Of a stretch of 64,000 nucleotides of DNA, positions 491-15,516 are shown one piece after another. How positions within the stretch are numbered: the stretch's first letter is position 1; every line of letters starts with the position of its first letter. The translations under genes and the position numbers were made by a program. The stretch spans positions 372,001 through 436,000 of the forward strand of contig NZ_JNXI01000001.1 of the NCBI RefSeq assembly GCF_000717055.1. The letters are read 5' to 3'. Source of the DNA: Streptomyces iakyrus (GTDB lineage: Bacteria > Actinomycetota > Actinomycetes > Streptomycetales > Streptomycetaceae). Under the pieces are notes generated by a model that saw nothing but the letters and a program-made list of their open reading frames with translations, did no database searches and was not told the DNA's origin.

Positions 491-1543
491 ATGACAATCG
501 ACCCCTACACCGCTGTCGGGCTCATCCCGGAGATCACCGAGATCCAGCAGCGCGACGACATCGCCGCCAACCTCGACCACCTCTACGCCCTCACCCGCAC
601 CGCTGTCTCCCTCGGCGGCCTCGACCACCCCGTCCGACTGGTCGCCCTGCCCGAAGGCGCGCTCCAGGGCTTCACCGACGAGATCCACGACCTCGACCAC
701 GCCACCTACGCCCGCACCTGCGCCATCAGCCTTCCCGGCGCGGAAACACAAGAACTCGGCCGCTGGGCCCACGAGTTCAACATTCACATCATGGCCCAGG
801 CCAAGGCCCTCCACCCGGCCTTCCCCGACCGGTACTTCAACGTCGGCTTCGTCATCGACCCCGTCGGCGAGATCGTCCTGCGGCACTACAAGCTTGCCCC
901 GCTGCCACCCATGGAACACAGCATCAGCCCACACGACGTGCTCGACCAGTGGACCCGTCTCTACGGCCGGAGCCCTGAGGCGTACTGGCCCGTTGCCGAC
1001 ACCGCCATCGGCCGCCTCGGCGTCATGATGGCCAACGAGGCGTCCTACCCGGAGAACGCCCGCGGCCTCGCCCTCGGCGGATGCGAGATCGCCTACCGCA
1101 CCAGTTACCCGCTGCCCGGCGTCGCCTCCGACGCCTTCGACATCCAGAACCGCGCCCGCGCCCTCGACAACACCATGTACGTCCTCGCCCCCAACCCGGC
1201 CTCCTACACCGGAGCCGACGTGCAGCGTGTCGACTTCTTCGGCGGCCACTCCACCATCACCGACTACACCGGCCGCACCATCGGCCACCTCGACCACGGC
1301 GGCGTCGCCACTTTCGTCACCGCCACCATCGACCTGCCCGCTCTCCGCCGCCAGCGCACCACCGCCGCGTGGACCAACTGGGCCAAGGACCTGCGCAGCG
1401 AGCTGTTCGCCACCCTCTACGAACAGCCCATCTACCCGGCCAACCTCTACGCCGACCGCCCGCCGTACAACCACGCCGAATACCGCGAGCACGTCACCGA
1501 ACCCCAGATCGACCTGATGCGCGCCCGCGGCATCTGGCGCTGA
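491..1543 (+). CDS. Nitrilase/carbon-nitrogen hydrolase family protein lacking the nucleophile Cys
   Basis: A 350-residue protein starts at the ATG at 491, behind AAGGAGG; the frame stays open further upstream but without a good ribosome site. The nitrilase fold is recognisable. Glu55 lies in LPEGALQG, Lys134 in RHYKLAPLPP, and the third block reads LGVMMANEASYPENARGLAL. In canonical members that block reads G-x-x-x-C-Y/N-D/E...PE, so the catalytic Cys position is Ala181. Glu and Lys are kept. It may be a pseudoenzyme or belong to a divergent subfamily. It faces the opposite way to the portal and scaffold genes on either side, so it looks like an independently expressed cargo gene (moron) in the prophage. 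No substrate can be inferred. Confidence 0.75.
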   Translation: MTIDPYTAVGLIPEITEIQQRDDIAANLDHLYALTRTAVSLGGLDHPVRLVALPEGALQGFTDEIHDLDHATYARTCAISLPGAETQELGRWAHEFNIHIMAQAKALHPAFPDRYFNVGFVIDPVGEIVLRHYKLAPLPPMEHSISPHDVLDQWTRLYGRSPEAYWPVADTAIGRLGVMMANEASYPENARGLALGGCEIAYRTSYPLPGVASDAFDIQNRARALDNTMYVLAPNPASYTGADVQRVDFFGGHSTITDYTGRTIGHLDHGGVATFVTATIDLPALRRQRTTAAWTNWAKDLRSELFATLYEQPIYPANLYADRPPYNHAEYREHVTEPQIDLMRARGIWR

Positions 1544-1571
1544 CCCCCGCTTCACGCACCCCGAGGCCGCG

Positions 1572-3329
1572 TCACCGGCCCGCCTCCACCGGCTCCCGCT
1601 CGCTCACCTTCCCCACCGGCTTCCTCACCCCGGCCGACCCCGACGCGCCGTCCTCCTCCAGGTACTCGTCGTCCTCGTCGGGCCCGCGCCGAGCAGCGGC
1701 CTCCGCCACCCGCACCGCGGCCTCGGGCTCCGCCTTCGCCCTGATCCGCTCCACCTCCTGCGAGGCGTCCTTGATCGGGTACCCGGCCTCCAGCAGCATC
1801 GCCACCGCCGTCTCCAGCGACAGGACCCCGGCGCCGTACGCCTTGACGACCTCCTCCAGCACCGCGCCCCGGTCCGTCGGCGTGTGCGGCGCCCACGCCA
1901 GCCGCGCTGGCAGCGTCTCCCCATCCGTCCAGCCCTCCGCCCGTCCGGCCTGGTACAGCCGCTGCACCATCTTGAACAGCAGCCGGTACTTGTGCTCCCG
2001 CGCCAACCGCATCATCCCGATCAGCGCATCCAGCGGCCCCAGAGCCAGCTTCAGCGCGTACCCCGACGGCACCTCCGTGGCCTCCAGCGTCCCGAGCCCA
2101 GCCGCCGTCACCCGGCTGTTCGCCGCAATCCGCTCCAGCAGGTGATCCACCCGCGCCCGCAGTTCGGCCAACTGCGGCGACGTGTCCAGGGCATCCATCC
2201 GCCCCGTTTCACCGAGCTGCCACACCGCACCGGCCTTCACCTGAAGCTCCTGCGGCTTGCCCGTCGCCCGGTCCACCGGCAGCCGCGCACCCGCGAGCCC
2301 GATGATCGGCGTGCCCGTCGTCGCCGAGGCCGCCGAGCTGTCCGAGTCCGTGGCCGCGAGCTCATCGAGCGCCTGCAAAACCCGCGCCAAAATCGAGCGC
2401 CCCCAGTGCTCCCCACCGTCGGGGATCGTGTTCGCGATGTGCACCACCGGCACGAAGTCGATCATCAGATCCAGCCGGTTCAGCTCCGTGCCATCCGGCC
2501 GCACCCGGAAGCTCGCCTTGTCCATCGGCAGCCGGTCCAGCGTCTCACCGTTCTTCAGATCCTCCAGCAGCCACTCCGCGTCCGTGAGGTAGCACGTCAC
2601 GTTGGACATCCGACCCGGCTCCCACGGGTACTGCCGCCCACCAGCCGCAGCACCGTCCTCGCCGTCCTCGGAGATCGGACCCAGCTCGTACGTCACACGC
2701 CGCACCCGGGCCTTCAAACCGGCGTCGTCGTCCGCCGGCAGCTCCCACGCCAGATGCACCCGCCTGGGAAAGTCCTCGTCCTCATCGCCCCACTGAGGGA
2801 AGAAGAACCCCGGATCGTAGACCCGCAACGTCGGCCGCTGCTTCTCCGGGTTCCACGCCAGCACCATCACGCTGTCCCCGAGCAGCACCGCCGCCCGCTC
2901 CGCCTGCTGGACCCGGAAGGTCAGCAGCTCTTTGTCCGCCCACTTCCGCAACCGGTCCTGGACCGCAGCGGCCTCGACCGCACCGGGCGTCGGCGTCTCC
3001 GCATCGGCATGCTCCGCGCCCTCGACCATGACCTTCTGCTCCGAACCGAGGAGGTAGCCGAGCGCAGTGTCCACGAGGTTGGCCGCGTCACCCAGCTCCC
3101 GCCGCTCCAACGCGCTCGCATCGCCACCGGCCGCCGCAAGCTGCCCGACCTGGTTGTTGTCGTACGACGCCAGCACCTTGTACGCGGCCAGCCGACGCAA
3201 CTCGTGCGGTGGCACCCACGTCTTGGCCAGCTCTGGGAACGCGCGGCTGCCCAGACGGCCAGCCTCAGCCATCACTGGCTTGTAGTTCAGCCACGACCAC
3301 GCATCGATCACGAGTTGGCGCAGGCCCAC
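1572..3329 (-). CDS. Phage portal protein
   Basis: A 585-residue protein starts at a GTG at 3329 behind GGAGGAG. Portal proteins form the dodecameric ring at the capsid vertex through which DNA enters and which carries the tail. Supporting features are the size, the central fold (DPGFFFPQWGDEDEDFPRRV, then WGRSILARVLQALDELAATDSD) and a helical stretch (RVDHLLERIAANSRVTAAGL). The C-terminal tail is acidic and charged. Its place directly after the terminase genes and before the scaffold gene matches the conserved tailed-phage order. The gap of 323 bp to the large terminase is unusually wide for this module. Confidence 0.85.
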   Translation of the reverse strand: MGLRQLVIDAWSWLNYKPVMAEAGRLGSRAFPELAKTWVPPHELRRLAAYKVLASYDNNQVGQLAAAGGDASALERRELGDAANLVDTALGYLLGSEQKVMVEGAEHADAETPTPGAVEAAAVQDRLRKWADKELLTFRVQQAERAAVLLGDSVMVLAWNPEKQRPTLRVYDPGFFFPQWGDEDEDFPRRVHLAWELPADDDAGLKARVRRVTYELGPISEDGEDGAAAGGRQYPWEPGRMSNVTCYLTDAEWLLEDLKNGETLDRLPMDKASFRVRPDGTELNRLDLMIDFVPVVHIANTIPDGGEHWGRSILARVLQALDELAATDSDSSAASATTGTPIIGLAGARLPVDRATGKPQELQVKAGAVWQLGETGRMDALDTSPQLAELRARVDHLLERIAANSRVTAAGLGTLEATEVPSGYALKLALGPLDALIGMMRLAREHKYRLLFKMVQRLYQAGRAEGWTDGETLPARLAWAPHTPTDRGAVLEEVVKAYGAGVLSLETAVAMLLEAGYPIKDASQEVERIRAKAEPEAAVRVAEAAARRGPDEDDEYLEEDGASGSAGVRKPVGKVSEREPVEAGR

Positions 3330-3652
3330 GGTCTCCTCCGGACGTCGGCCCCGCGCCGTCGATCAGCCTATAGTCCGGCGAACCGCCCACCGTCGGCCGC
3401 CGACCCGGCCACGCCCGCGTACAGGTGACGCCTCCCCCGTCGCCTCACACCGCACGCCATCGTTGTTCACGGCGTGCCTGCCGCCGACAACCCCGACACG
3501 CCGCCTTGCCCCCCACCGCCCGGCTCACGGGCGCTTACTGGCTGAACACGCCACCGCACACCCCCGACGAAGGCTGCACCTGGTGTGCCCTACTCCGCGA
3601 CAGCACGGCCCCGAGCAGACCACATGACCACCCGAGCACACCCCATAGCCGG
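3330..3652. other. Gap between large terminase and portal genes
   Basis: No convincing gene is seen in these 323 bp. A plus-strand frame from a GTG at 3425 includes the stretch EGCTWCALLRD, with a C-x2-C pair, but it has no usable ribosome site and runs antisense into the terminase gene. The portal ribosome site (GGAGGAG) lies at the left end of the gap. Confidence 0.4.
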
Positions 3653-5146
3653 TCACCGACGACCGCTGAGCCGCTGGTCGTCCCCACCACGTGGTGGTGG
3701 CATCGTCGGATCAAGGAACAGATCCCACAGCGCCCACACCGCCGAGTCCAGCAGGTCCGGCGAGTCCTCCGTCTCCCCCTGACCGACGAACGTGGTCATC
3801 TGTTCCTCCAGCTCCGCGAACCGTCGAGCCGGGCCAACGTGAGACACCCGAGCCTGCTCGTACAGCTGGGCGGCCGGGGCCGCCCGCGCCCGCTTCCCTC
3901 TGGTGGCGTGAACGATGCGCCAGTTCACTGTCGGGTCCACCTGCTCCAGGAGAGCGGGCAGGTAGTCGCCGCCGTTGTTCGCCTCGATGACCACGCAGTC
4001 CGCCCGGTGCTCGTGGTACAGCGTGGCGGCCCGCTTCATCGCCTGCGTCGGCGTGTACCGGTCCTGCTCACAGTGCAGCAGATACCCGCGAGGACGGTCG
4101 TCCCCGAACATCGTCTCCACCGGGAACCCGCGCCCCGCCACCGTGAACGCGGTCATGTCGGCGTTCTCGTGGCTCTTGGTCGCCGGGTCGACGGCCACCA
4201 CCACGCGCTGGAGGTCCGGCAGATGCTCGGGCCGGGGCCGGAAGCCCTCGACCTCCAGCATCCAGCCCTTCCACAGCGCGCCCTCCACGTCCTCGAGTAG
4301 CTCGCCCGACAGCTCCTGACGGCCCAGCCGGGTGCCGGCGTACTCCTCCTCCAGCTCCTCGCGGGCCGCCGCCGACAGGTTCGCGTCGTTCTCCCGCATG
4401 TGCCCGCGGGTCAGCACGACCCGCGGCGGCGCCCCGCCCTCCTCGTGTGCCTTCTCCTGCTTCCTACCGCGCTCGACGAGCCGCTTGACGTGAGGGAGCG
4501 GCTTCGGCGTCGTGGAGATGACGACCTGCGGGGTGTCCGCCTCACGAAGGCAGAACCACAGCATGTCGTAGACCTCCTGCGCGGTGTGCCGTGACCAGGC
4601 CGCGTACTCGTCCAGCCACGCCTTGTCGAACGCCCAGCCGCGCAGGTTGTCCGGCGTCTCCGCACCGAACCCCCGGATCAGCGTGCCATTCGCCAACCGG
4701 AGCGTCGTCTCACCGAGCGACGAGTTGTACTTCGCCACCTCCTCCGGCGGGAACACCGACAACAGCCCCGACTTCGGGGACTCGAAGCAGATGTCCCGCA
4801 CCAGCGTCGCGTTCTTGGCCACCACCGCGATCTGCAAACCCGGCGTATGCGCCCACTCCCGGACCGTCTCCGCCGCCGTCCGCGACTTCCCCCAGCCACG
4901 GCCGGTGAGCAGCATCCACACCGTCCACAGCCACAGCGGCTGACGCTGCGCCGCACGGGCATGGTGGTGCAGCCACCCCGCGTGGGGCAGCCCGTCACAG
5001 TTCGGGACCTCGCACGCCCACCTGCGCGCCGACAGCTCATCGGCCCGGACCAGTGCCGCGACCTCAGCCTTCAACTGCTCGTCGCTCATCACTGACGGGT
5101 CCGCGAACCCCTCGACTATTCGGCGCTTGGCCCGGCCGCGGCTCAC
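3653..5146 (-). CDS. Phage terminase large subunit
   Basis: A 497-residue DNA-packaging motor. The ATPase half has a Walker A at about residues 82-88 (GRGWGKS), a Walker B with catalytic Glu (WLDE, ending near 180) and a coupling motif STTPK near 211. The RNase H-like nuclease half has three acidic residues in place: Asp320 (VVVAVDPATK), Glu388 (CVVIEANNGGD) and Asp467 (PDLLDSAVWAL). All motifs look intact, so the enzyme should be functional. The GTG start overlaps the small-subunit stop codon (GTGA), which implies translational coupling. An N-terminal extension of about 75 residues precedes the ATPase core and contains Cys and His residues. Confidence 0.95.
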   Translation of the reverse strand: MSRGRAKRRIVEGFADPSVMSDEQLKAEVAALVRADELSARRWACEVPNCDGLPHAGWLHHHARAAQRQPLWLWTVWMLLTGRGWGKSRTAAETVREWAHTPGLQIAVVAKNATLVRDICFESPKSGLLSVFPPEEVAKYNSSLGETTLRLANGTLIRGFGAETPDNLRGWAFDKAWLDEYAAWSRHTAQEVYDMLWFCLREADTPQVVISTTPKPLPHVKRLVERGRKQEKAHEEGGAPPRVVLTRGHMRENDANLSAAAREELEEEYAGTRLGRQELSGELLEDVEGALWKGWMLEVEGFRPRPEHLPDLQRVVVAVDPATKSHENADMTAFTVAGRGFPVETMFGDDRPRGYLLHCEQDRYTPTQAMKRAATLYHEHRADCVVIEANNGGDYLPALLEQVDPTVNWRIVHATRGKRARAAPAAQLYEQARVSHVGPARRFAELEEQMTTFVGQGETEDSPDLLDSAVWALWDLFLDPTMPPPRGGDDQRLSGRR

Positions 5147-5676
5147 TGCGCGACCTCCGACAACCGGCGCTCCAGCTCACGGCGGAGCTGATCCATACGA
5201 GCCCGGCGATCCTCGTCCGATAGAGAGGCCACGTCCACGCCCTGGTCCCGGTCCTCGACCGCTCCGGCCGCCGGGGCCTCACCTACGGCTCGACGTTCGA
5301 TCTCCGCCGCGACCTGGATGTAGCGCAGCAGCTCCGACGGCGACAGCTCCCGCGGGTCGAGCGTCTGGAGCCGCGCGACCGCCTTGCTCTGCACGGCCTG
5401 CGCCAACTTCGCGTGTCTGCGGGCGATGTCCCGCCGCGCCTGTGCCTGCTCCGCGAGGAACAGCCGGTCCTGCTCCCGGTCGTAGGCCGCGGCCCGCATC
5501 ACCCATGCGAACTGCCGCGACCACCGGCCCAGCAGCGTGCGGGATTTATGCAACTCGCGTGCCGCCTTTGTCAGACTCCGCGCTGGGCCGAGATCGCGGT
5601 ACACGGCGAACGCCTCGAACGCCTGGACCGACTCCCCGCTCTGCCGCTCCCAGGACTCCACGGTGCCCTCGGCCAC
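5143..5676 (-). CDS. Phage terminase small subunit (HTH protein)
   Basis: A 177-residue protein starts at a GTG at 5676 behind AGGAGG. An N-terminal helix-turn-helix-like block (ARSLTKAARELHKSRTLLGR) should recognise the packaging site on phage DNA. It is followed by helical, charged oligomerisation sequence (DREQDRLFLAEQAQARRDIA). The C-terminus ends in a second charged helix. The family is typical of small subunits encoded by Streptomyces phages. The stop codon overlaps the start of the large-subunit gene, and the ParB-like gene ends 25 bp upstream, so all three probably share a transcript. Confidence 0.85.
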   Translation of the reverse strand: MAEGTVESWERQSGESVQAFEAFAVYRDLGPARSLTKAARELHKSRTLLGRWSRQFAWVMRAAAYDREQDRLFLAEQAQARRDIARRHAKLAQAVQSKAVARLQTLDPRELSPSELLRYIQVAAEIERRAVGEAPAAGAVEDRDQGVDVASLSDEDRRARMDQLRRELERRLSEVAQ

Positions 5677-5701
5677 CGCTCACCTCCTGGCCGACGGCCG
5701 A

Positions 5702-6604
5702 CTAGTTGCTCTGTGCGGCCAGGATTTCCAGCGCCCGCCACGGCTCGTCGGCCGGCACGGTGCCGTCCTGCACCATCCGGTCGATGGCCGCCCGCACGAC
5801 GGCGGCCGTCTCCACCGGCACGTCCCGCACCCCGAACACCGTCTCCAGCGGCGCCGCCCCCGCCCGGGTCGCCTCCCCGGTGGCGGCGTCGAACCAGCCC
5901 TCGGCCAGCTCGCCCAGGTGCCGCTCGAACACAGCGAGGATCACGCCGAGCGCCGTCGCGCTGTTGCCGATCTTGTACGCGGCCCGGGAGGTCTCCAGCG
6001 CATCGAGCACCGGCTCGTACTGCTCCAGCCCGGCCACCCATCGCTGGTCCGCCGTCGCCGTGGACCGGGCCGCGTCGAACGCGGCTTCCGCCCGCTCCAG
6101 CTCATCGGGAAGGAACATGAACTGCACGCTGGCGAAGTCGAGGTTCGCCTCGCCCAGGGAGGCGACGTCCACCTTCTCCAGCAGGTCCAGAGCCTTGTCG
6201 TCCAGGCCCGTGTACTGCCGCCACTCCACCGACTCCAGCTCGTCGTACAGCTCCTTGAGGATCGCCGGATCGTCCTGCCCGGCGATGGCGTTATGCGAGA
6301 GCTGAAGCGCGATCTGCCGCTGGCGGGGCAGCGGCTCGTCTATCTGCATCCACCAGATCTGCGACAGGCCGGCCTCGATCGCGGCGAGCGTGCGGTGGTT
6401 GCCGGACAGGACGACCAGCCGCCCCGTCTCGCGGTCGTTCCACACCAGCGGCGTCGAGGTCAGGCAGCCGTCACGCTCGATGTTCGCCACGAGCTGCCGG
6501 AACTGCTCGTGCGGCAGGAACCGCGCGTTGACGTCGAGCAGCGTCAGCGTGCGCGGGTCGCCCTGAACCATCTGCGGCGGGGCGAGGCAAGTGGTCTCCT
6601 CCAT
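5702..6604 (-). CDS. ParB-fold N-terminal domain protein next to terminase
   Basis: A 300-residue protein. The frame extends upstream into the neighbouring gene, but the ATG at 6604 is 2 bp after the neighbour's stop and has GGGAG before it. The N-terminal 100 residues have the ParB/sulfiredoxin-like core: LLDVNARFLPHEQFRQLV, then LTSTPLVWNDRETGRLVVLS and the signature GNHRTLAAIEAG, which corresponds to GERR in classic ParB. No HTH is evident after it. The C-terminal 150 residues are helical and not recognised. It sits between the methyltransferase/Mom-like gene and the terminase, so it may act in DNA modification or packaging. Segregation seems unlikely. Confidence 0.75.
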   Translation of the reverse strand: MEETTCLAPPQMVQGDPRTLTLLDVNARFLPHEQFRQLVANIERDGCLTSTPLVWNDRETGRLVVLSGNHRTLAAIEAGLSQIWWMQIDEPLPRQRQIALQLSHNAIAGQDDPAILKELYDELESVEWRQYTGLDDKALDLLEKVDVASLGEANLDFASVQFMFLPDELERAEAAFDAARSTATADQRWVAGLEQYEPVLDALETSRAAYKIGNSATALGVILAVFERHLGELAEGWFDAATGEATRAGAAPLETVFGVRDVPVETAAVVRAAIDRMVQDGTVPADEPWRALEILAAQSN

Positions 6605-6606
6605 GG

Positions 6607-7941
6607 TCAGACTCCCGTCTTCGTCGTCGGGGCGCCCCACCGCTTCGCCCACATGTGAAGGGCCTCGGCCAGCGTGTGCTGGCCCATAGCCCCCTGGTAC
6701 TGGAGCTGGAACTTCCAGCCGTCCTCGTTCGACGGGCTGCGCTTGTGCAGCCGCAGCAGCCCGCGGTACTTCATCGACACCGGGTTGTTGCTGAACGCCG
6801 TCGTCGCCACCCTCCGGATCCGCCGCGAGAAGGCCCGCTGGCACAGCAACTGCGCCTCGGCGCTGGTGGCCGCGAGCACGATCAGCTTCGACAGCCGCGG
6901 GTAGTCGGTTGGGGCGACCGCGAAGTCCGAGAGCACGTACGCCTCGTCCGGCGTGTACGTGCTCGGGGCCATCGCGAACACGCCCAGGAGTCGCCCGTCG
7001 CCGTCCTTCACCGCGACGGCCAGGTTCGCCGCGCCCGGCGCGATCTTCGGGTTGAGGTACCGGGAACGCAGCGCGTTGAACTGGCCGGGCTTCAACAGCG
7101 ACAGCCGGAGCGGGCCGACCAGTTCGTCACCCTCCCGCAGACGCGGAACCTTCACCGGATCGATCGGCTGGCGTGGAGCGACGATCCTCGTCCGGGCCTG
7201 ACTGGCATACACGTAGAAGGGAGCGGCGCGCGGTGTCGCCTTGATCACGCCGCGCAGGTAGGGGTGCAGCTCAGGCACGTCGTGGTTGGAGGCCGTCAGC
7301 CAGTACGGCCGGTCCGTGATCGCGCCGAGCACGCTGACCACGTCGTCGTCGGACAGCGGCTCGTACTCGGGAGCGTCCCAGGTGAAGTGCGCCTCCAGCG
7401 GCTCGTACAGCTTCTCGTAGCCGCCGCCGTAGAAGGGAGGGAAGGAGCACACCGGGGCGTCACGGGGAACCTTCTGGAGCCACGAGCGCACGTCCTCCAC
7501 CTCGTACGAGGCGAGTTCGATGTCCGAGCCGGACAGCCGCTCGACCGTCTCCGCGTGCTTGACCCTCCACTGCTCCCGATAAGAGCGCACGACCCGTTCA
7601 TGCCACAGCCCCTCGCGGCCGACGCTGGCGAGGAACCGAGTGCCGAGCATGAGCGTGGCGACGGTGCCGACGCCGTCGTCCAAGGAGTCCGCGAGCCAGC
7701 CGAGTTCGTCTCGGCTCTCCTCGCGGAGCTGGATGCCGACCGGCTGGCGGGTGAGCCACCGGCCGACCGCGCTGCTGTAGATGGACACGTCGGAGGAGTG
7801 GAGGGCGAAGCCCATGCCGGCCACGCTGCGCTCGATGGTGAAGTTGCCGCAGCACGGGACGTACACGGGGCCGCTCGGCCACTGGCTGGCGGTCTCGCGC
7901 ACGATGGAGCGCATGGGGCCCGGGATGGTGCCCTGGAACAT
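6607..7941 (-). CDS. Probable DNA-modification protein: adenine-methyltransferase-like plus Mom-like acyltransferase
   Basis: A 444-residue protein whose ATG at 7941 follows GGGAGGCGAGAG. The N-terminal half resembles a SAM-dependent DNA methyltransferase, with a motif-I-like block at 27-38 (VYVPCCGNFTIER), a possible acidic loop (HSSDVSIYSS) near 50, and SFPPFYGGGYEK at 166-177 in place of the (D/N/S)PP(Y/F) motif of adenine methyltransferases. Related actinophage proteins are called putative antirestriction adenine methyltransferases. The C-terminal part (about 270-420) resembles phage Mu Mom, a GNAT-like enzyme: LKPGQFNALRSRYLNP, VLSDFAVAP...LSKLIVLAA and RIRRVATTAFSNNPVSMKY. The likely role is covering phage DNA against host restriction. 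The fusion reading is an inference from motifs. Confidence 0.6.
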   Translation of the reverse strand: MFQGTIPGPMRSIVRETASQWPSGPVYVPCCGNFTIERSVAGMGFALHSSDVSIYSSAVGRWLTRQPVGIQLREESRDELGWLADSLDDGVGTVATLMLGTRFLASVGREGLWHERVVRSYREQWRVKHAETVERLSGSDIELASYEVEDVRSWLQKVPRDAPVCSFPPFYGGGYEKLYEPLEAHFTWDAPEYEPLSDDDVVSVLGAITDRPYWLTASNHDVPELHPYLRGVIKATPRAAPFYVYASQARTRIVAPRQPIDPVKVPRLREGDELVGPLRLSLLKPGQFNALRSRYLNPKIAPGAANLAVAVKDGDGRLLGVFAMAPSTYTPDEAYVLSDFAVAPTDYPRLSKLIVLAATSAEAQLLCQRAFSRRIRRVATTAFSNNPVSMKYRGLLRLHKRSPSNEDGWKFQLQYQGAMGQHTLAEALHMWAKRWGAPTTKTGV

Positions 7942-8039
7942 CTCTCGCCTCCCGACGAACGACAACGCCCGGCCTCGGCGGGTGCCGGGCCGGGCGCTGC
8001 GCTGGAACCTTACACAAGGAGCGCGCAGCCCCTTGGAAT

Positions 8040-8053
8040 AATGTCACCTATCT
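8040..8053 (+). repeat. 14-bp intergenic motif, copy A
   Basis: AATGTCACCTATCT lies between the DUF488-type gene and the methyltransferase/Mom-like gene. The same 14 bases recur at 10280-10293, and a copy with one mismatch is on the minus strand at 13075-13088. All three copies are intergenic and inside the prophage. An operator is one possible reading. Confidence 0.6.
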
Positions 8054-8073
8054 TTGAGGCGCGGTTCCGACGC

Positions 8074-8475
8074 TCAGATCAACGTGCCCTGCTGATCCAT
8101 CGGGGACAGCTCCCGCACCTCATCTCCCGTGACCTCCTTCCACCAGGCCGCGAACACGCGGCGGTGGCACCACAGGCCCGGCTTGGCCAGGTCCTCGAAG
8201 CAGAGCAGCACCAGGCGGTGATCGCCCTCGGCCTGCGTGATCTGCCGCAGACGCGCGGCGATCCGCTCGGGGCCGAGCTGGTCGAGGTCGGCCCGATACG
8301 CCGTCGTGAACTCGGGCTCGGGCTGGGAGAGGTAGTCCCGACGCGGGGCGAGCTCCCGCACCGAGTGGGTGAGAGAGTAGGGGAGTTTGAAGCGGGGAGC
8401 GCCCAGGGTGATGCGGACCGGCACCCCTTGCGGGGGCTGGAACGCCTGGAACCGATTGGTGAACAGGGTGAGCAC
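8074..8475 (-). CDS. DUF488-type small protein
   Basis: A 133-residue protein starting at a GTG at 8475 behind GAAAGGA; the longer upstream frame is Arg-rich and lacks a ribosome site. It starts VLTLFTNRFQAFQ and carries RITLGAPRFKLPY. The conserved core LVLLCFEDLAKPGLWCHRRV, with its C...C-H-R-R end, followed by FAAWWKEVTG, is typical of DUF488 proteins. The biochemical function of that family is not established. It lies between parB and the modification gene, so it may belong to the same prophage module. Confidence 0.7.
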   Translation of the reverse strand: MLTLFTNRFQAFQPPQGVPVRITLGAPRFKLPYSLTHSVRELAPRRDYLSQPEPEFTTAYRADLDQLGPERIAARLRQITQAEGDHRLVLLCFEDLAKPGLWCHRRVFAAWWKEVTGDEVRELSPMDQQGTLI

Positions 8476-8641
8476 GTGGCCATTCCTTTCGTGGTGCTCA
8501 GATACCAGGGCGCGTCGGCGTCCCCGCCGGCGGCCCCGGTGACCGATGATGCCGCCCGCTCGGACCTGTAGGGGCCTGAGCAGCACCGGGCACGTAGGGA
8601 AAGTGCCTCCCTGCGCGCCCGGCTCGGGCCGAAATGGGTTG

Positions 8642-8696
8642 GAATTCGGAGAGGAATTCAAGCGGAAAGAGGCGCGGCCGGAATTCCGGCCGCGCC
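8642..8696. repeat. GAATTC cluster with a 26-bp perfect palindrome
   Basis: Three GAATTC hexamers lie at 8642, 8654 and 8681. The third is the centre of an uninterrupted 26-bp perfect palindrome at 8671-8696 (13-bp arms, no loop, core CCGGAATTCCGG). The cluster sits just beyond the end of the parB gene, in front of the DUF488-type gene. Three further GAATTC hexamers flank the parB promoter at 9914, 10006 and 10020. Candidate functions are a centromere-like ParB site or an operator. Confidence 0.55.
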
Positions 8697-8722
8697 CACT
8701 CACCCAAACCCACAGGAGAAGA

Positions 8723-8748
8723 AGGGGCGCGACCGCCGCCGCGCCCCT
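8723..8748 (-). terminator. Terminator of the parB gene
   Basis: A 9-bp perfect stem (AGGGGCGCG / CGCGCCCCT) with an 8-base loop lies 6 bp past the parB stop codon, reading left. On the minus strand it is followed by CTTCTTCTCC rather than a clean U-run. Confidence 0.6.
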
Positions 8749-8753
8749 CCGTT

Positions 8754-9896
8754 CTACTTCGCTGCCGCTTGCGCCTTCTTGGCAGGCGTCCGGCGCGCCG
8801 GGGCCTTCGTGCCCGCGGCCGTGCGCGCCGCGGGCTTCGGGCCGGGCTTGGCCGCCGCCTTCTTCCCCGTGGACTGCGACTCGTCCGCCGCCTTCGCCTC
8901 CGGCTTCTCGGCCTTCGCCTCGGGCTTGGCCGCCGCCTCGGTCTTCTTCGCAGCCGCCGCCTCCTGCTGGACCTCCACGGCCGCCTTATTGAACTCCTCG
9001 GCCATGGCCCGCTGGATACCCTGCGCCTTGCTCAGCAGGTTCCGTACCATCTGCACCTTGGCGTACAGGCGGCCGACGACCCGCAGGTGACGGGCGAGGT
9101 CGTCACCGAGGATGACAGCCAGATCCTCCGGCTTCTTCTCCGCCAGCTCCTCCAGCAGCGGGATCAGGACCTCCTCCGCCTTGCCGAGTTCGTCCTTCGC
9201 CTTGGCCTTGGCCTTCTTCTGCTTCTCCTGCTCCTCGGCCGTCGGCGCCTTCTCGTTGGTGAGGGAGGTCTGCTGCTCCATCATCTTGAGGCCGTTGGCG
9301 AAGTGCTGCGCCTCGGCCTCGCTGTCGAAGTCGCCGCGCACGTACCGCATGGCGGCCACCATCTGGTTCGCCGGGTTGAGCTGGGCGATGTGCCAGGCGA
9401 GGTTGTTCTTGATCTGTCCCTGGTCGACCATCTCGGCCACCTCGGGGCGCAGGGTGAGCAGGCCCAGCCGCCAGGTGATGTGCGTCTCCGTCTTGCCGAA
9501 CTGCTTGGCGATCTTCGCCGGGGTCCATCCGGCGGCCTTGAGGTCGGCGTACGCACCGGCCTCCTCCATGATGGTCATGTCCGCCCGGTTGACGTTCTCA
9601 GCGATGCTGAGGACGTACGCCTCTTCCTCGGTGGCACCCTCGACGACCTTCGCCGGGATGACCTCCAGGCCGGCCGCCTGGCAGGACCGCCAGCGCCGCT
9701 CGCCCGCGATCAGCATGTAGGGGACCTTGGCGCCCTCGACCGGCCGGACGACGACCGGCTGGAGGAGGCCGTTCTCCTTGATGCTGTTGGTCAGCTCGTC
9801 CTGCGCCTCCTCGGAGAAGAACTTCCTCGGCTGCTCCGGGTTGGGAGCGATCTCGCTGACCTTGATGTTGATGAACTCGACCTTGTTGTCAGCCAT
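8754..9896 (-). CDS. parB: ParB/Spo0J-family protein with Ala/Lys-rich histone-like tail
   Basis: A 380-residue protein. Residues about 1-110 form the ParB N-terminal domain, with PNPEQPRKFF, LLQPVVVRP and the nucleotide-binding signature AGERRWRSCQAAGL. The ENVNRADMT block follows, then an HTH region (TPAKIAKQFGKTETHITWRL) that should bind a parS-like site. A charged helical stretch (EEQEKQKKAKAKAKDELGKA) follows. The last 75 residues or so are Ala/Lys/Pro-rich (KKAAAKPGPKPAARTAAG, KAPARRTPAKKAQAAAK), like histone H1 tails and suited to non-specific DNA binding. No ParA partner gene is in the window. The role could be prophage maintenance, DNA compaction or regulation. Confidence 0.9.
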   Translation of the reverse strand: MADNKVEFINIKVSEIAPNPEQPRKFFSEEAQDELTNSIKENGLLQPVVVRPVEGAKVPYMLIAGERRWRSCQAAGLEVIPAKVVEGATEEEAYVLSIAENVNRADMTIMEEAGAYADLKAAGWTPAKIAKQFGKTETHITWRLGLLTLRPEVAEMVDQGQIKNNLAWHIAQLNPANQMVAAMRYVRGDFDSEAEAQHFANGLKMMEQQTSLTNEKAPTAEEQEKQKKAKAKAKDELGKAEEVLIPLLEELAEKKPEDLAVILGDDLARHLRVVGRLYAKVQMVRNLLSKAQGIQRAMAEEFNKAAVEVQQEAAAAKKTEAAAKPEAKAEKPEAKAADESQSTGKKAAAKPGPKPAARTAAGTKAPARRTPAKKAQAAAK

Positions 9897-9942
9897 TTTC
9901 CCGCGCCTTTCGTGAATTCCGTTCGGAGTGTTTCCCTTTGTT

Positions 9943-9985
9943 CTTACACTTATATCTTAATGGCGAATACCGCCAAATCAAGTTC
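9943..9985 (-). promoter_or_regulatory. parB promoter with palindromic operator in the spacer
   Basis: Reading left toward parB, TTGATT and TAAGAT form a -35/-10 pair with a 16-bp spacer. The spacer contains the inverted repeat TGGCG-GTATT-CGCCA, so a protein bound there would block RNA polymerase. Assignment is by eye. ParB autorepression or control by the HTH regulator at 10742 are both possible. Confidence 0.45.
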
Positions 9986-10067
9986 AGAACTCTTTTAATT
10001 CAAGGGAATTCAGAAAGGGGAATTCGCCGCATATCTAAATTCGCCTTCCCGGATGCGGACATGAGAG

Positions 10068-10099
10068 AGCCCGCCACGACCAAGCGGTCACGGCGGGCT
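10068..10099. terminator. Hairpin downstream of the 57-residue gene
   Basis: A long imperfect stem with outer arms AGCCCGCC / GGCGGGCT encloses a further paired segment. It lies between parB and the small gene ending at 10326 and probably ends transcription from that gene. Confidence 0.5.
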
Positions 10100-10140
10100 G
10101 GCTCCCGTCAGGCACCCCGACGGCCGCACCGGACGGCCGA

Positions 10141-10186
10141 CTCCTCGCCGGGCGGGGCGCGGGGGGGTCGGCCGCCCGGCGAGGAG
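10141..10186. terminator. Strong 15-bp stem hairpin
   Basis: CTCCTCGCCGGGCGG at 10141-10155 pairs perfectly with CCGCCCGGCGAGGAG at 10172-10186 across a 16-base G-rich loop. With the hairpin at 10068 it isolates parB from leftward transcription from the 57-residue gene. Confidence 0.65.
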
Positions 10187-10279
10187 TAGGGAAGGACGCC
10201 GCTCGCGCGACGCTGCCATGCGGGCTCCTGCGGCTGCTGTACCCGCCCGGCACGTCAGAACATACAGCAGCATCTCAAA

Positions 10280-10293
10280 AATGTCACCTATCT
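10280..10293 (+). repeat. 14-bp intergenic motif, copy B
   Basis: AATGTCACCTATCT, identical to copy A at 8040-8053. It lies 32 bp beyond the stop codon of the small gene at 10326-10499. Confidence 0.6.
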
Positions 10294-10325
10294 GGCCCCT
10301 GTCTGAGTGTTGGTCACCCTGTGAC

Positions 10326-10499
10326 TCAACAGCAGCCATCCTCTCGCTGGCCGTCATCTGACTCCCGGCCGCGCATACCAGCCTGCCACTCCAGCAGCCT
10401 TCGGGCCTCCTGGCGGGCCGAGACGTCCGCCCCACCTCGAAGCAAACACGGGGGCTGCTTGGCCAGTTCAGCGATCCGCCGCTCGTCGATTTCGGACAT
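10326..10499 (-). CDS. Small prophage protein, 57 residues
   Basis: Starting at the ATG at 10499 behind GGGAGGAA, this encodes MSEIDERRIAELAKQPPCLL and continues to a C-terminus ending DDGQREDGCC. The upstream frame extension lacks a ribosome site. The protein is charged and mostly helical, with no recognisable domain and no membrane segment. It is the leftward-facing neighbour of the rightward HTH regulator gene at 10742, an arrangement often used for small phage regulators, but no function can be assigned. Confidence 0.5.
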   Translation of the reverse strand: MSEIDERRIAELAKQPPCLLRGGADVSARQEARRLLEWQAGMRGRESDDGQREDGCC

Positions 10500-10741
10500 G
10501 CGATTCCTCCCGTGAACGGCAAGCGCGCCGCCTTCGCCCGCCCAGATGCGACTTCCTCGACAGCCCACCAAGAGGCAGGCAACGGAGCGCGTGACGCCCG
10601 CAGTTCGCCCGCCGGCTCCCCCGGGGAAACTGTCCAACAAACCCTATAACCCCTCCGAGCTGCGAGGTATCGTAGAGGCAGGGACGATTGTTACCGGCCA
10701 GTCACCTGCGGCAGCATACGGCACGGCCAGAGAAGGCGGAC

Positions 10742-11284
10742 ATGACAGACACCACTGACCGGCGTCAACTCATGAGCCTGGCCTCGAAGTTGCTCGCCCT
10801 GCTGCGACTGCGCCGCGATCCGGACGGGTTCACGCCCAGCGCCCGGGACGTCTCAGATGCGACGACCCCCGTGGGACAGCGCAAGCCCCTGCTGTCGCAC
10901 GGCACCGTCAACAGCCTGATGAACGGCACCAGTAGCAACCCCAGATCGTCTACACTCATCGCGCTTGCGCAGGCACTCGACGCCCCGGCCGCGTTCCTGC
11001 TCCCAGGACCGGAGTGGGACGACCTCGCAGCCCTGTCCGTGTACCAGGAGCGCCCAGAAGCCCGCGAAGTCCTGCGTTTAATGCAGGGTCTTGAGGTGCA
11101 GGACATTCTTGAAATCAGTTCGAAGCTCCGGGAGATCCGTGGTCGCAGGGGACTACCCAAAGAGGTCCCCACGATCCCCCCACCTCCCCCCGGCGTCGAC
11201 CAGCCCCGTGAGGGCCGGCCGCGCCGCCTGCTGAGCCTGCACGAAGCCGCTGAGAGGGCAGCGGATGATCTGGAAGGACGTTGA
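10742..11284 (+). CDS. XRE-type HTH regulator
   Basis: A 180-residue protein starting at the ATG at 10742 (AGAAGG upstream); an upstream in-frame ATG at 10688 lacks a ribosome site. The N-terminal 80 residues form an XRE-like HTH: LSHGTVNSLMNGTSSNPRSS, then TLIALAQALDAPAAFLLPG. A helical middle follows (REVLRLMQGLEVQDILEISS) and a Pro/Arg-rich C-terminus. Its stop codon overlaps the TTG start of the membrane-protein gene (TTGA), so the two are co-translated. In actinobacteria such HTH genes are often paired with MAB_1171c-type membrane proteins. Here it is the best candidate for the prophage repressor or switch protein. Confidence 0.7.
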   Translation: MTDTTDRRQLMSLASKLLALLRLRRDPDGFTPSARDVSDATTPVGQRKPLLSHGTVNSLMNGTSSNPRSSTLIALAQALDAPAAFLLPGPEWDDLAALSVYQERPEAREVLRLMQGLEVQDILEISSKLREIRGRRGLPKEVPTIPPPPPGVDQPREGRPRRLLSLHEAAERAADDLEGR

Positions 11285-12057
11285 ACCTCTTGGACGGCCC
11301 CATCTACGGTGTCTGTGCCCTTGTCACAGCCGTAAGCGCGGCGATACGCCTGCACTACACCCGTAAGCGTCGCAATCAAGCGGTCTATCAAATCGCCCAT
11401 AGGGCCCGAATGTCGGCGTTCGCAGCCTGCTTCATCGGCTCACTCCTGGCGATCCCCACAGTCGCCGAAGCCATTGACCGACTCATGGACCTCAACGAGG
11501 TCTCCTCCCTCGCCTCGGACCTCGCCGCAGTGATCTTCTGGGCATGCCTCCAAGTCATGATCGTGGACTGGACGCGCTCAAGAAGCCACGTACCGGCGGG
11601 AGTCGCGGTGCGCATCATCGCCGTGTGCTGTGTTGTCGCGGCGATGATCTGGGAGTTCCACATGGCCGACACCGCGCACACTGAGCTGTCCGCGACCTAC
11701 GCGCGTAGATCCGACGTCCGGCTGTACCTGCTCACCTACCTCGGCTTCACAGCCGTGGCCGGGCTGGAAATCGGCGCCTTTTCTACCGGGCTGGCCATTG
11801 CGGCCTGGCAGCAACGACGCGCAGCCGCAACCGGACTGTCCATCGCTGCAGCCGGGGGCATCTTCGGCGTAGCCCATGCGCTCAGCCGTAGCGCGTACAT
11901 CATCGCTGACCGGACCGGGCACGCGTGGCCGCTGCCTGTCGAAAACGCCGTCAGCCCCGCCTTGGCGGGGCTCTCCATCATCTGTGTGGCCACCGGTCTC
12001 GCGCTGGCCACCATCGGCTACAACATCAGCCCCAAAGGCGCCGGCAGCGCAGTTTAG
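11281..12057 (+). CDS. MAB_1171c-like multi-pass membrane protein
   Basis: A 258-residue protein with a TTG start at 11281 overlapping the regulator stop. It has about seven hydrophobic segments, for example IYGVCALVTAVSAAIRL, LASDLAAVIFWACLQVMIV, AVRIIAVCCVVAAMIW, VRLYLLTYLGFTAVAGLEIG, AAAGGIFGVAHALSRSAYII and ALAGLSIICVATGLALATIG. The layout matches the actinobacterial MAB_1171c family of putative transporters, which are usually encoded beside an XRE-type regulator. Transport activity is not shown. The gene converges with the recombinase-like gene and overlaps it by 4 bp. Confidence 0.6.
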   Translation: MNLLDGPIYGVCALVTAVSAAIRLHYTRKRRNQAVYQIAHRARMSAFAACFIGSLLAIPTVAEAIDRLMDLNEVSSLASDLAAVIFWACLQVMIVDWTRSRSHVPAGVAVRIIAVCCVVAAMIWEFHMADTAHTELSATYARRSDVRLYLLTYLGFTAVAGLEIGAFSTGLAIAAWQQRRAAATGLSIAAAGGIFGVAHALSRSAYIIADRTGHAWPLPVENAVSPALAGLSIICVATGLALATIGYNISPKGAGSAV

Positions 12058-13028
12058 GCGGACAACTCCTCAGCCTCCGCGCCCCACTGCCGCCAATGCA
12101 GTGCCACCCGGTTCGCGTCCACCGTGCGAGAGCCTCTGGACGCGGCCGGGTACACAGCCACCTTCTCCAGCATGAGAACCAGGACACCCTTCTTCGCCCT
12201 CATCGGCGCGTGCTTCCACCAGCGCATGAGGTCAGGGATGTCACCCACCGGCACATGCTTGACCTGCTCCAGGAAACGAGCCTTCGTCTCGCTCTCGCGG
12301 ATCAGCTGCGTGAGTTCCTTGTCGGCCGCCCTGAACGCCTTGAGCGACATGTCCGGCGAACGCCCGTAGTCCACGCCCAGCTTCTTCTGCCGACGGCGCG
12401 CGGCTGCCGCCTCCTTACGCAAGAGGGCAGCCTGGGTCAGCAGTTCATCTCGCGCCTGACCAATCAACGCGCTGACCTCCGGCTTGGCCAACTCTGCCAG
12501 CACGTGCTCAGCAACGTACGTCTCCAGCAGGTCAGCATTGATGCGGACCTTGCCGCACCCGCCCGGATGCTGAGCTGTGCTGGGCGCACACCGGTAGCCG
12601 CGGCTGCCGCGGTTCGAGGGAGAGGAGCCCAGCGAGGTCGTGCACAGCCCGCAGGTACCCATCAGACCCGGAACCAGGTACTCGCGCTGTGGCGCCCGCT
12701 GCTTGGCGGGGTCATGGACGGGGCGCATGGCGCGGATGGCCTCGAAGTCCTCCCGAGGGATGATCGCGGGGCCGCCCGTTTCGACGAGGTTGCCGTTCTC
12801 GTCTTCCTCCAGACCGGCGATGGCCGGGTGATCGAGCACGTTTGCCAGGACGTCTGGCTTCCACAGGCCACCGCGCGTCGTGCGGTACCCCTCGGCGTTC
12901 ATCCACTCCGTGATGGCGGGATAGGGCTGCTTGAGCAACCGTCGCGAGGCGGCAGCACGAATGCCCTCCGCCTCGCTCTCGCGCACCCGCCGGTACGCCA
13001 TGTCCTCAAAGCCGTACAGCCTCGGCAT
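12054..13028 (-). CDS. Serine-recombinase DNA-binding domains without catalytic domain
   Basis: A 324-residue protein starting at the ATG at 13028 behind a GGAGG-type site, so it looks like a designed gene. Residues 1-110 match the 'recombinase' domain of large serine recombinases (ESEAEGIRAAASRRLLKQ, then AITEWMNAEGYRTTRGGLW and NVLDHPAIAG). A zinc-ribbon block follows (TCGLC ... GYRC ... GGCGKV), then a coiled-coil segment (ELLTQAALLRKEAAAARRRQ) and a C-terminal domain. The resolvase domain of about 150 residues, with its nucleophile Ser, is absent, and no remnant is seen upstream. It should bind DNA but not cut it. Confidence 0.75.
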   Translation of the reverse strand: MPRLYGFEDMAYRRVRESEAEGIRAAASRRLLKQPYPAITEWMNAEGYRTTRGGLWKPDVLANVLDHPAIAGLEEDENGNLVETGGPAIIPREDFEAIRAMRPVHDPAKQRAPQREYLVPGLMGTCGLCTTSLGSSPSNRGSRGYRCAPSTAQHPGGCGKVRINADLLETYVAEHVLAELAKPEVSALIGQARDELLTQAALLRKEAAAARRRQKKLGVDYGRSPDMSLKAFRAADKELTQLIRESETKARFLEQVKHVPVGDIPDLMRWWKHAPMRAKKGVLVLMLEKVAVYPAASRGSRTVDANRVALHWRQWGAEAEELSA

Positions 13029-13061
13029 CTCCTCGCCCCTCCTACCGACCCCCTTTAGTGA

Positions 13062-13108
13062 ACTAGTTTACCGAAGATAGGTCACATTGTTGGAAACTCA
13101 ACAAACAC
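13062..13108 (-). promoter_or_regulatory. Promoter of the recombinase-like gene with 14-bp motif, copy C
   Basis: On the minus strand TTGAGT and TATCTT are spaced by 16 bp, a good sigma-70 promoter for the gene starting at 13028. The -10 lies inside AATGTGACCTATCT (13075-13088), which differs by one base from the copies at 8040 and 10280. A protein bound to the motif would therefore control this promoter. Confidence 0.5.
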
Positions 13109-13135
13109 CCCAAGATCACGCGCCGCCTCCGTCGA

Positions 13136-13396
13136 TCACGTACTCGCCCCCGCGTCCCGGCGCTGCTCGATGCCGAGGACCTTCCACAGCTCCGCCGTTG
13201 GTACCCGGACTGTGCCGCCTAGCGGGAGCGTCCGAACAGGGAACTTCCCATTGCGGATCAGCTCGTACGCCTTGTCTCGGCCAATTCCCAGAGCACGCCC
13301 GGCAGTTGTCACGTTGACCGTGGCCGGAAGAGCCAGCAGCTCCTCCAGACCCATCGCTCCGGCCGAAGCCTGTCCGCCCGCTTCCTGAGCAGTCAT
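13136..13396 (-). CDS. xis: Excisionase-like HTH protein
   Basis: An 86-residue protein with a MerR/excisionase-type DNA-binding block: ATVNVTTAGRALGIGRDKAY, then ELIRNGKFPVRTLPLGGTVR and VPTAELWKVLG. This is the usual layout of actinobacterial Xis proteins, which bend attachment-site DNA and favour excision by the integrase. It is divergent from the integrase gene, whereas many actinobacterial elements carry xis and int in one operon. An internal ATG at 13352 is a possible alternative start, because the ribosome site before 13396 is weak. Confidence 0.75.
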   Translation of the reverse strand: MTAQEAGGQASAGAMGLEELLALPATVNVTTAGRALGIGRDKAYELIRNGKFPVRTLPLGGTVRVPTAELWKVLGIEQRRDAGAST

Positions 13397-13486
13397 CTCG
13401 TTGGTCGCAATCTCCCCCGCGCCAACTTGTCAGCAACTTTACAACGCTGTCCGACACCCCCAGCAAGATCGAGAGAGATCACGCCA

Positions 13487-13506
13487 GACACGTACGGACA
13501 CGTACG
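13487..13506 (+). repeat. Tandem 10-bp direct repeat upstream of int
   Basis: GACACGTACG occurs twice head to tail at 13487 and 13497, in the xis-int intergenic region. Arm-type sites for Xis or Int binding are a reasonable guess. Confidence 0.45.
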
Positions 13507-13559
13507 CACACCAACGGCTGGCTGTGATCCAAGCGACAGTCAACAGGGAGCAGTGTCGG

Positions 13560-15467
13560 ATGTTCGAGCCGAGCTACTACAGGCGGTGCCAGTGCAAGGG
13601 ACCACTCAAGGACAAGAAGGGCAACCCCGTCCTCGACACCGACGGCAACCCCAAGATCGGCTCCATCGGCACGACGTGCCCCAAGCTAGGCAAGGGGCAC
13701 GGCACCTGGAACTTCTACTTCGAGCTCGAACCAGCCGAGGGCGGCACCCGCCAGCGGGTACGCCGCGGCGGCTTCGCCAAGTTGGAAGACGCCAAGAAGA
13801 AGGCCAGGGAGATCTACGACGCCGCCATGGCCGGCGGCGACGTGCTGTCCGATGAGAAGTGCGGCGACTTCTTCCTTCGGTGGATCAAGGCGAAGAAGTC
13901 CCTGGCCCGTACGACCCGCCACGGCTACGAGGAGCACATTAACAACTACCTCCTCCCGCACCTCGGGCACATCAAGTGCCGTGACCTCAAGGTTCGGCAC
14001 CTCGACAAGATGTACGACGCGATCGAGAAAGAGAACGCCCAGCGGATCCTCCACCGGCTGCATGTCGACGAGCTCCAGAAGAAGCGCGACGCCGCGCACC
14101 GGGCCTGGGTGAAGACGGCGGGCTATGCCAAGAAGGAGGAGCGCCGCGCCGCGCGCCGGGCCTTTCTCGACGCCAACGCAGAGCTGCGCGACGGAAAGAA
14201 GGGGCTGCGGAAGGTCACCTCCCCAGCCACCATGCACCGCATCAACGACACCCTCAGCTCGGCACTGTCCTGGGGCATCAAGCGCGAACAGCTCTTCCAG
14301 AGGAACTGGGCCCAGCTCGTGGAGCTGCCCCCAGTCACTCGGCCCAAGCCGCTCGTCTGGACTCCCGAGCGCATCGAGCACTGGAAGCGCACCGGCGAGA
14401 AGCCCGGCCCGGTCATGGTCTGGACACCGGAGCTGACCGGCCAATTCCTCGACTTCGTCAAGGACGATTGGCTCTACGAGCTGTGGCACAGCTTCATCTT
14501 CCTCGGCCCCCGCCGCGGCGAGATGGCCGCCCTGCCCTGGACGGAGGTCAGCCTCGATGCCCTGTGGCTACGGATCTCCCAGCAGATCGTCGAGGTGGCG
14601 TACGAGCTCTACGGAGAAGCGCCGAAGGCCGACAGCGTTCGCACCCTGTCCCTGAGCCTGGAGTCTGCGGACAACCTCGCCACCTTTCGCGCGAAGCAGG
14701 AGAAGCAGCGCCAGGAGTGGGGAGACGCCTACGTCGAGAGCGGCCGGGTGTGGACGCACGAGAACGGCGAGGCGCTGCACCCCGACTGGATATCCCGACG
14801 CTTCACCCGCCTGGTCGAGCTGTCCGGCCTGCCGCCGGTCCGCCTCCACGACCTGCGCCACCTCGCCGCCACCCTGTCCCTGCTCGCCGGGCACGACATC
14901 AAGGTCGTCCAGGAGAAGCTGGGGCACTCCTCGCGCCAGATCACCTCCGACACGTACACCAGCGTGCTGCCCGAGATGCTGCGGGCCGAGGCAGAGTCGG
15001 TCATGGCCGTCGTCCCCCGCGACGTCCCCTTCCAGGTGCGCACCCCGCTGACGATCCCCGAGGCAGCTTGGCAGAACGACATCGCCGTCTTCTTCGCGCA
15101 CGGCGCACGGCAGTCTGGCGACACCTGGGCCGTCGGAGCGCAGACCCAACCGGACTCCGAACTCCTCGGCATGATCACCCTGACCGGCCGGGGTCAGGAC
15201 GACGCCGCCAACGGAGCGGTGAAGTGGGTACGTGATCACTGCTCCGCGAGCGACCTTGAGCTGGTACGCGTGGAGAACTTCAACGACCGCTACCCCGAGG
15301 ACCAGCGAGCCGACTTCTCGCTCACGCGCTTCACGGTCGCCCGCTCCGAGTCCCCGACCGTCGAGCCATGGGCCCTACCGACCGGCCTGCCTCCGGCGGC
15401 GCCCCGCCACGGTCTCCGGGCTCGAAAGGGCGCCGGAAGGCGGCGTGAGGGCGCTTCTGTCCACTGA
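13560..15467 (+). CDS. int: Tyrosine-type site-specific integrase
   Basis: A 635-residue recombinase. The ATG at 13560, 9 bp after GGGAG, is preferred over an upstream ATG in the same frame. An N-terminal Cys-containing arm-binding region (YYRRCQCKG ... TTCPKLGKGHG) precedes the core-binding domain (KSLARTTRHGYEEHINNYLL). The catalytic residues are present: Arg in GPRRGEMAAL near 317, HDLRH near 430, GHSSRQ near 453 and the nucleophile Tyr in SDTYTSVLP near 466. About 160 residues follow the Tyr, longer than usual, with sequence resembling no standard integrase part. It integrates the prophage, presumably at the adjacent tRNA gene. Confidence 0.92.
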   Translation: MFEPSYYRRCQCKGPLKDKKGNPVLDTDGNPKIGSIGTTCPKLGKGHGTWNFYFELEPAEGGTRQRVRRGGFAKLEDAKKKAREIYDAAMAGGDVLSDEKCGDFFLRWIKAKKSLARTTRHGYEEHINNYLLPHLGHIKCRDLKVRHLDKMYDAIEKENAQRILHRLHVDELQKKRDAAHRAWVKTAGYAKKEERRAARRAFLDANAELRDGKKGLRKVTSPATMHRINDTLSSALSWGIKREQLFQRNWAQLVELPPVTRPKPLVWTPERIEHWKRTGEKPGPVMVWTPELTGQFLDFVKDDWLYELWHSFIFLGPRRGEMAALPWTEVSLDALWLRISQQIVEVAYELYGEAPKADSVRTLSLSLESADNLATFRAKQEKQRQEWGDAYVESGRVWTHENGEALHPDWISRRFTRLVELSGLPPVRLHDLRHLAATLSLLAGHDIKVVQEKLGHSSRQITSDTYTSVLPEMLRAEAESVMAVVPRDVPFQVRTPLTIPEAAWQNDIAVFFAHGARQSGDTWAVGAQTQPDSELLGMITLTGRGQDDAANGAVKWVRDHCSASDLELVRVENFNDRYPEDQRADFSLTRFTVARSESPTVEPWALPTGLPPAAPRHGLRARKGAGRRREGASVH

Positions 15468-15516
15468 ATCGCCCCCGCGTCCACTGTGTGTCCACTGGAT
15501 CTTGGTCTGAACGGAT

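Follow-up and report, generated by a model that had tools for sequence, protein, structure and literature searches.

A 64,000-nucleotide stretch of the Streptomyces iakyrus genome (contig NZ_JNXI01000001.1, positions 372,001 to 436,000; hereafter the window, numbered from its first letter) carries a phage element in which one minus-strand gene (6607..7941) encodes a 444-amino-acid fusion of a DAM-like-phage1 domain to a GNAT-phage-like domain, as identified by Pfam matching and an AlphaFold model. The open reading frame (ORF) starts at an ATG at 7941 and its stop codon ends at 6607; an alternative TTG at 7965 would give a longer ORF, and the ATG was preferred because the family consensus starts MFxG. 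Residues 2-267 (7141..7938, minus strand) matched PF22555 with E 6.1e-82 and 275.4 bits, and residues 279-434 (6640..7107, minus strand) matched PF22559 with E 1.7e-48 and 165 bits, each against a curated cut-off of 27. An initial annotation, made from the letters alone, had placed a fusion of a methyltransferase-like domain to an acyltransferase here; the ORF stands as placed, both halves score far above the Pfam cut-offs, and domain searches returned DAM-like and GNAT families. Its PCCGNF block is also present, with PCCGN at residue 29. Its overall interpretation was partly supported, as described below.

The PF22555-PF22559 fusion is already known to databases, and the fusion itself is not new, since both Pfam families are curated and the pair is widespread. 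Family members have the same two domains in the same order over almost the full length of the window protein, and PHROG 7858, listed there with unknown function, spans residues 1-434. Thirteen phage records (10 phages, three in duplicate) carry the fusion with 41-49% identity over 98% of its length, the first protein search and a mixed-alignment search gave 313 and 496 relatives (best 120 listed for each), and relatives were present at 24 genome loci. Such proteins are named ‘putative antirestriction adenine methyltransferase’ by NCBI; neither this name nor the Pfam family names mention a link to transfer RNA (tRNA), and no experimental function for any member was found in the literature searched, where the papers listed for the fusion, for DUF488 in DNA modification and for Mom with glycyl-tRNA included none on this family. 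Proteins named amidoligase also match the fusion, one by fold over most of its length (BFVD A0A8S5SJK3, E 2.3e-25, 695 aa) and others by a profile match of phrog_2443 to the GNAT half, so that longer fusions including an amidoligase are possible.

The minus-strand gene order is ParB, DUF488-like gene, fusion, ParB-like gene, a small ORF in the terS position, terminase large subunit and an ORF in the portal position; the terS-position and portal-position ORFs had no Pfam match. ParB (8754..9896, ParB_N and HTH_ParB) and the terminase large subunit (3653..5146) were identified by Pfam, the DUF488-like gene (8074..8475) by a weak match of 20.7 bits against a cut-off of 22.2, and the ParB-like partner (5702..6604), which stayed under Pfam thresholds, through PHROGs. 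The DUF488-type and ParB-fold neighbours named in the initial annotation were thereby both recovered; the gene does lie upstream of terminase, though not directly, as the ParB-like gene and the small ORF intervene. After dereplication of the fusion loci at 80% protein identity, a relative of the ParB-like protein was found downstream of the fusion in 65 of 67 loci. The ParB-like query matched all 13 fusion-bearing phage records as well, and through it the fusion was also found in two more phages, FP_Brigit and ValentiniPuff. Of the 60 dereplicated loci whose upstream sequence exceeds 1.5 kb, 33 have a DUF488-like gene no more than 1.5 kb before the fusion, a likeness to the DUF488-N3 nucleic-acid-modifying systems reportedly described by Burroughs et al. 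in 2023.

The AlphaFold model of the whole fusion had a mean predicted local distance difference test score of 91.7, and its structural matches were mostly methylases. The structure prediction that had been proposed as a check against N6-adenine methyltransferases gave an N-terminal half with the fold of E. coli Dam, so that a Rossmann methylase fold of the Dam kind is common to this half (as predicted) and to Dam-type N6-adenine DNA methyltransferases (2g1p; T4Dam, 1yf3). Motif IV of these enzymes follows the pattern D/N/S-P-P-Y/F/W, to which FPPF of the window does not conform. The altered block that had been read in place of the catalytic motif is there: SFPPF (residues 166-170, 7432..7446, minus strand) lies at the motif IV place, with F167 replacing the catalytic D/N. 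Across 68 sequences this position held F in 36, Y in 14, N in 15, A in one and a gap in two, so that F or Y replaces the D/N kept by Dam-type enzymes in 50 of them, including the window. Judged from these residues, the Dam-like half appears catalytically altered. All 67 readable sequences keep G32 and D51, and a Firmicutes-type clade of fusions carries NPP and EPCAG. Four of the best 120 proteins have insertions of about 160-275 residues at or near the SFPPF site, one of them named ‘Hint domain-containing’ by NCBI. A phage-encoded S-adenosylmethionine (SAM) synthetase lies near the FP_Brigit fusion (L047 1479-2657), and ORFs resembling methionine adenosyltransferase were seen in 15 of 164 fusion loci.

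The C-terminal half was folded alone, since methylases had filled the structural list of the whole model. Its predicted fold is GNAT, and its best fold matches included Mu Mom, tied with others, and acetyltransferases bound to coenzyme A (CoA). On the claim that this half reads like Mu Mom (PF25680; PDB 8bv8), which modifies phage DNA, the predicted fold did not rank Mom above the other matches, and the sequence showed no kinship. An hhalign comparison of the GNAT half with eight Moms gave only 8.8%, and a Pfam scan of the window protein at E up to 1 returned only PF22555 and PF22559, whereas Mu Mom itself matched PF25680; kinship by sequence was accordingly dropped. Mu Mom thus belongs to a Pfam family separate from PF22559, with no detectable sequence kinship, and has no Dam-like half. 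A PDB sequence search with the fusion profile returned nothing better than an unrelated kinase at E 0.11 and was likewise set aside. The S124A mutation inactivates Mu Mom, according to a PDB title; S351 of the window protein varies as S/A/G/N, in a register against S124 that is unreliable.

Transfer RNA genes were searched with ARAGORN in 164 loci, 41 of which are close relatives of the window (L002-L025, L058-L074). A tRNA was found in 78 of the 164 and in none of the 41. From the 67 dereplicated loci the representative of the window group and three with 300 nt or less upstream were dropped. Of the remaining 63, with starts taken from the alignment, 38 had a single same-strand tRNA in the 600 nt preceding the fusion (28 Gly, 5 Lys, 1 Arg and 4 unassigned). 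The rest of the same loci held seven tRNAs in 625 kb, a 91-fold lower density than in the upstream 600 nt; an earlier count of 33-fold was discarded, as its longest-ORF starts lay too far upstream in some loci and its model had been trained on near-gene tRNAs.

A covariance model, R1, was trained on 45 Gly-type tRNAs and run over the loci at E up to 1. In the alignment of these 45, 94.3% of cells were paired and the covariation score was 0.705, whereas shuffles scored 0.184 and slid controls no more than 0.162; this is partly by construction, as ARAGORN picked the sequences and itself demands pairing. R1 found an upstream same-strand match in 50 of the 63 representatives, 33 within 150 nt, 8 within 300, 3 within 600, 2 within 1200 and 4 beyond; 17 of the 44 within 600 nt were non-training loci. 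A linked, isotype-specific tRNA, as would be expected of tRNA-dependent DNA modification, is thus present in the fusion family by both methods (ARAGORN 38/63, R1 44/63). All five isolate phages examined have a match, Gly-like in Megabear, Clawz and Soos and Lys in FP_Brigit; that of ValentiniPuff has an ambiguous isotype and sits at the opposite end of the linear record, so that it counts as upstream only where the two ends are joined. No literature on a tRNA linkage of these fusions or on a lysyl variant was found in a search that had preprints and most subscription papers outside its scope, and this lack is weak evidence of novelty.

Among 82 loci with hits, 43 representatives carried 46 R1 matches between -1200 and +700 relative to the ORF start: 34 Gly, 6 Lys, 1 Arg and 5 with anticodon loops of 6 or 8 bases. 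U73 was present in 38 of 38 Gly-like elements, which also have the NCC anticodon bases and in 21 cases an encoded CCA, and the Lys-type elements have A73. The D-loop GG was kept in 20 of the 38 (18 without) and a canonical T loop in 22 (16 without), compared with 15 and 14 respectively of 17 host-genome rows, several of them overlapping. We read the Gly-like elements as tRNAs that glycyl-tRNA synthetase could charge, to judge from its identity elements, and that would not all be kept for translation.

Isotype followed the protein tree, which was built with FastTree from 67 proteins (L044 dropped by the gap filter) and labelled for isotype by hand; L096, L109, L113 and L134 were labelled although their match is more than 1.2 kb away, as were L105 with a match on the other strand and L043 with one downstream. 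Apart from one odd loop and several rows with no match, the FPP/YPP clade held Gly-like elements only. In the NPP clade the isotype was Lys, except for a Gly subclade (L162, L168, L173) and a single Arg call. The window protein was sister to L075, which has a tRNA-Gly, and because it nests in Gly lineages its ancestor probably had a linked tRNA, which the Streptomyces element has probably lost or replaced by use of another. Ordinary tRNA-Gly genes are present in the host genome and may serve the window's copy. The window gene is under purifying selection despite having no linked tRNA, with a proxy for the ratio of non-synonymous to synonymous change of 0.07-0.18 against nine chosen close relatives, none of which had an internal stop.

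The same kind of linkage was found beside Mom genes. In Microbacterium phage Appa a true Mom is flanked by a ParB-like gene and a tRNA-Gly, two features that Appa-type Moms share with the fusion family, and the Mom loci examined had no tRNA-Lys beside them, unlike one fusion clade. Among the best 80 of 355 viral Appa-type loci, ARAGORN found seven tRNAs, all Gly and all within 600 nt of mom, and none in the other 351 kb. R1, which was not trained on Moms, gave 26 matches at E up to 0.1 over 89 Mom-related sources, some of them away from mom (as was one of the pair in L228), and matched 15 of the 31 dereplicated loci with 200 nt downstream (32 dereplicated in all). Another scan, written with these sequences already known, looked for a GCG..CGC acceptor and U73 together with an NCC anticodon arm. 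Between -60 and +120 nt from the mom end it picked up an element in all but four of the 32 dereplicated Appa-type loci (28 with, and L202, L278, L200 and L273 without), against a background of two elsewhere on the same strand and six on the other strand of 210 kb, and one in 2 x 44 kb of window chromosome. Many of these elements have no D arm and many overlap the mom 3' end (L200-L279). The acceptor pairs fully in the 28 aligned elements, by selection; the unselected T arm pairs in 96.4% of cells, with both-side changes at four of five pairs. Silva et al. 2023 (doi 10.1101/2023.03.24.534169) appears, by its title, to have reported already that a viral DNA-modifying enzyme, by context Mom, takes a charged tRNA as its donor. 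The tRNA linkage is independent comparative support for such a donor. That paper is listed among the references of a 2025 EcoSal Plus review (PMC12707154).

The phage element that holds the fusion covers about 1500-15600 of the window and C1:370077-371126 of the same genome (L341 15077-16126), with integrase, terL, a phage capsid E protein and the terS- and portal-position ORFs. No tail gene was seen among the ORFs read, a part of all, and related IMG/VR contigs are often just 15-25 kb long; the element may be a satellite that forms capsids, or else a prophage remnant that has become stable. Several close relatives do not have a stretch that the window carries next to the portal-position ORF (490-1557), which includes a gene for a carbon-nitrogen hydrolase, and they have about 1 kb between that ORF and terL that the window lacks (3370-3652). 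An ORF at 12057-13028, adjoining the tyrosine integrase, has serine-recombinase domains (recombinase and zinc ribbon) and no catalytic-domain match. To the left of the window (L341 1384-7608) a cluster resembling dnd phosphorothioation genes was seen by eye, followed by a transposase-like ORF, a HATPase (MzaB-like), a weakly DndB/DpdB-like gene and an HNH gene, which adjoin phage head genes. Elsewhere in the genome a noncanonical tRNA-Gly(TCC) at C5:108771-108845 (L193) resembles the phage-linked ones; within the genus, 23 of the 61 genomes had a match, with a maximum of five in one genome.

With somewhat better than even confidence, we propose that the fusion carries out a Mom-like, aminoacyl-tRNA-dependent modification of adenine in phage DNA. 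The GNAT half would take an amino-acyl group, glycyl in the clade of the window, from a charged tRNA and place it on adenine, while the catalytically altered Dam-like half would bind the DNA and present the base and the adjacent ParB-like protein would probably aid DNA loading. By producing a bulky modified adenine, this reaction would block host restriction, and the window copy would use host glycyl-tRNA. The Mom product is N6-carbamoylmethyl-adenine. Glycyl transfer to N6 would give an isomer of it, with the same added C2H3NO, and because the two are isomers a rearrangement, or attack in another order, could join them. FemX-type transferases of Gram-positive bacteria likewise use glycyl-tRNA, including a non-translational tRNA-Gly without translation features, though their target is peptidoglycan and not DNA.

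Several results weigh against this proposal. The step from the family-level result to the window protein is weakest at the tRNA, which the window copy lacks: nothing tRNA-like in the element rose above background, whether by R1 (best match 11.5 bits, E 0.41; also unfiltered on 1500-15600), by Rfam on 7850-8300, by a cloverleaf scan built by hand, for which the chromosomal part served as control, or by an acceptor-plus-anticodon scan, and no match at E up to 1 was found in the close relatives L002-L042. The L193 tRNA was rejected as a substitute donor, as it and the fusion, found in 23 and 5 of the 61 genomes, share two and do not co-occur. Within the family, 13 of 63 representatives had no upstream same-strand R1 match, nine of them none at all and the others a match on the opposite strand (L105), downstream (L043, L044) or degenerate (L180), and four matches lay more than 1.2 kb from the fusion. 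Rfam families, including tRNA, gave no match at E 0.01 on seven test loci; the Clawz, Soos and other elements were recognised by R1 only, and for Clawz and Soos energy-based folding gave no clean cloverleaf. For the 20 Gly-like elements that keep the D-loop GG, use in translation is possible. Mu-type (32 loci) and Darwin-type (27 loci) Moms had no linked tRNA-Gly, and the sequence comparison of the GNAT half with Mom was negative, as noted above.

The GNAT half might instead use an acyl-CoA such as glycyl-CoA, a donor named for Mom in a 2021 jumbo-phage review (PMC7824862), with the nearby tRNA a hitchhiker or serving translation. The CoA-bound acetyltransferases among the fold matches and the retained D-loop GG would suit this explanation; we consider it unlikely given that the linkage is isotype-specific and tracks the enzyme tree, that tRNAs are locally enriched 91-fold by ARAGORN and that the tRNA bodies are noncanonical. 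A cis-acting leader or trailer of the operon, such as a processing site or a translational control, would account for elements that lie mostly immediately 5' of the fusion, or at or overlapping the mom 3' end. Such an element would have no need of the invariant U73, the NCC bases, the CCA encoded in 21 of 38 Gly-like cases or the change to A73 in the Lys type, and its position would not be expected to differ between the fusion (5') and Mom (3'), which makes this quite improbable. That the N-terminal half is an active N6-adenine methylase and the GNAT half regulatory is consistent with the predicted Dam fold, the kept G32 and D51, the NPP and EPCAG of the Firmicutes-type clade and the SAM synthetase gene of FP_Brigit; set against F or Y at the catalytic position in most sequences, the window included, it seems very doubtful.

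Wider than the tRNA-dependent modification proposed for the fusion is a claim that we regard as evenly balanced, that Dam-like/GNAT fusions and part of the Mom family form a broad class of phage enzymes paired with their own reduced, non-translational tRNA, which would set the amino acid placed on adenine (Gly in one clade, Lys in another), with the identity of the donor switched in evolution. If true, DNA would be decorated with different amino acids from charged tRNAs, the tRNA being an exchangeable specificity part, and new modified bases would be predicted in cultured phages such as Megabear and FP_Brigit, by hand calculation deoxyadenosine + 57.02 Da (glycyl or its carbamoylmethyl isomer) and deoxyadenosine + 128.09 Da (lysyl). 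Two Pfam families, PF22555 and PF22559, would gain a function, and there would be a reason why single odd tRNA genes adjoin these enzymes.
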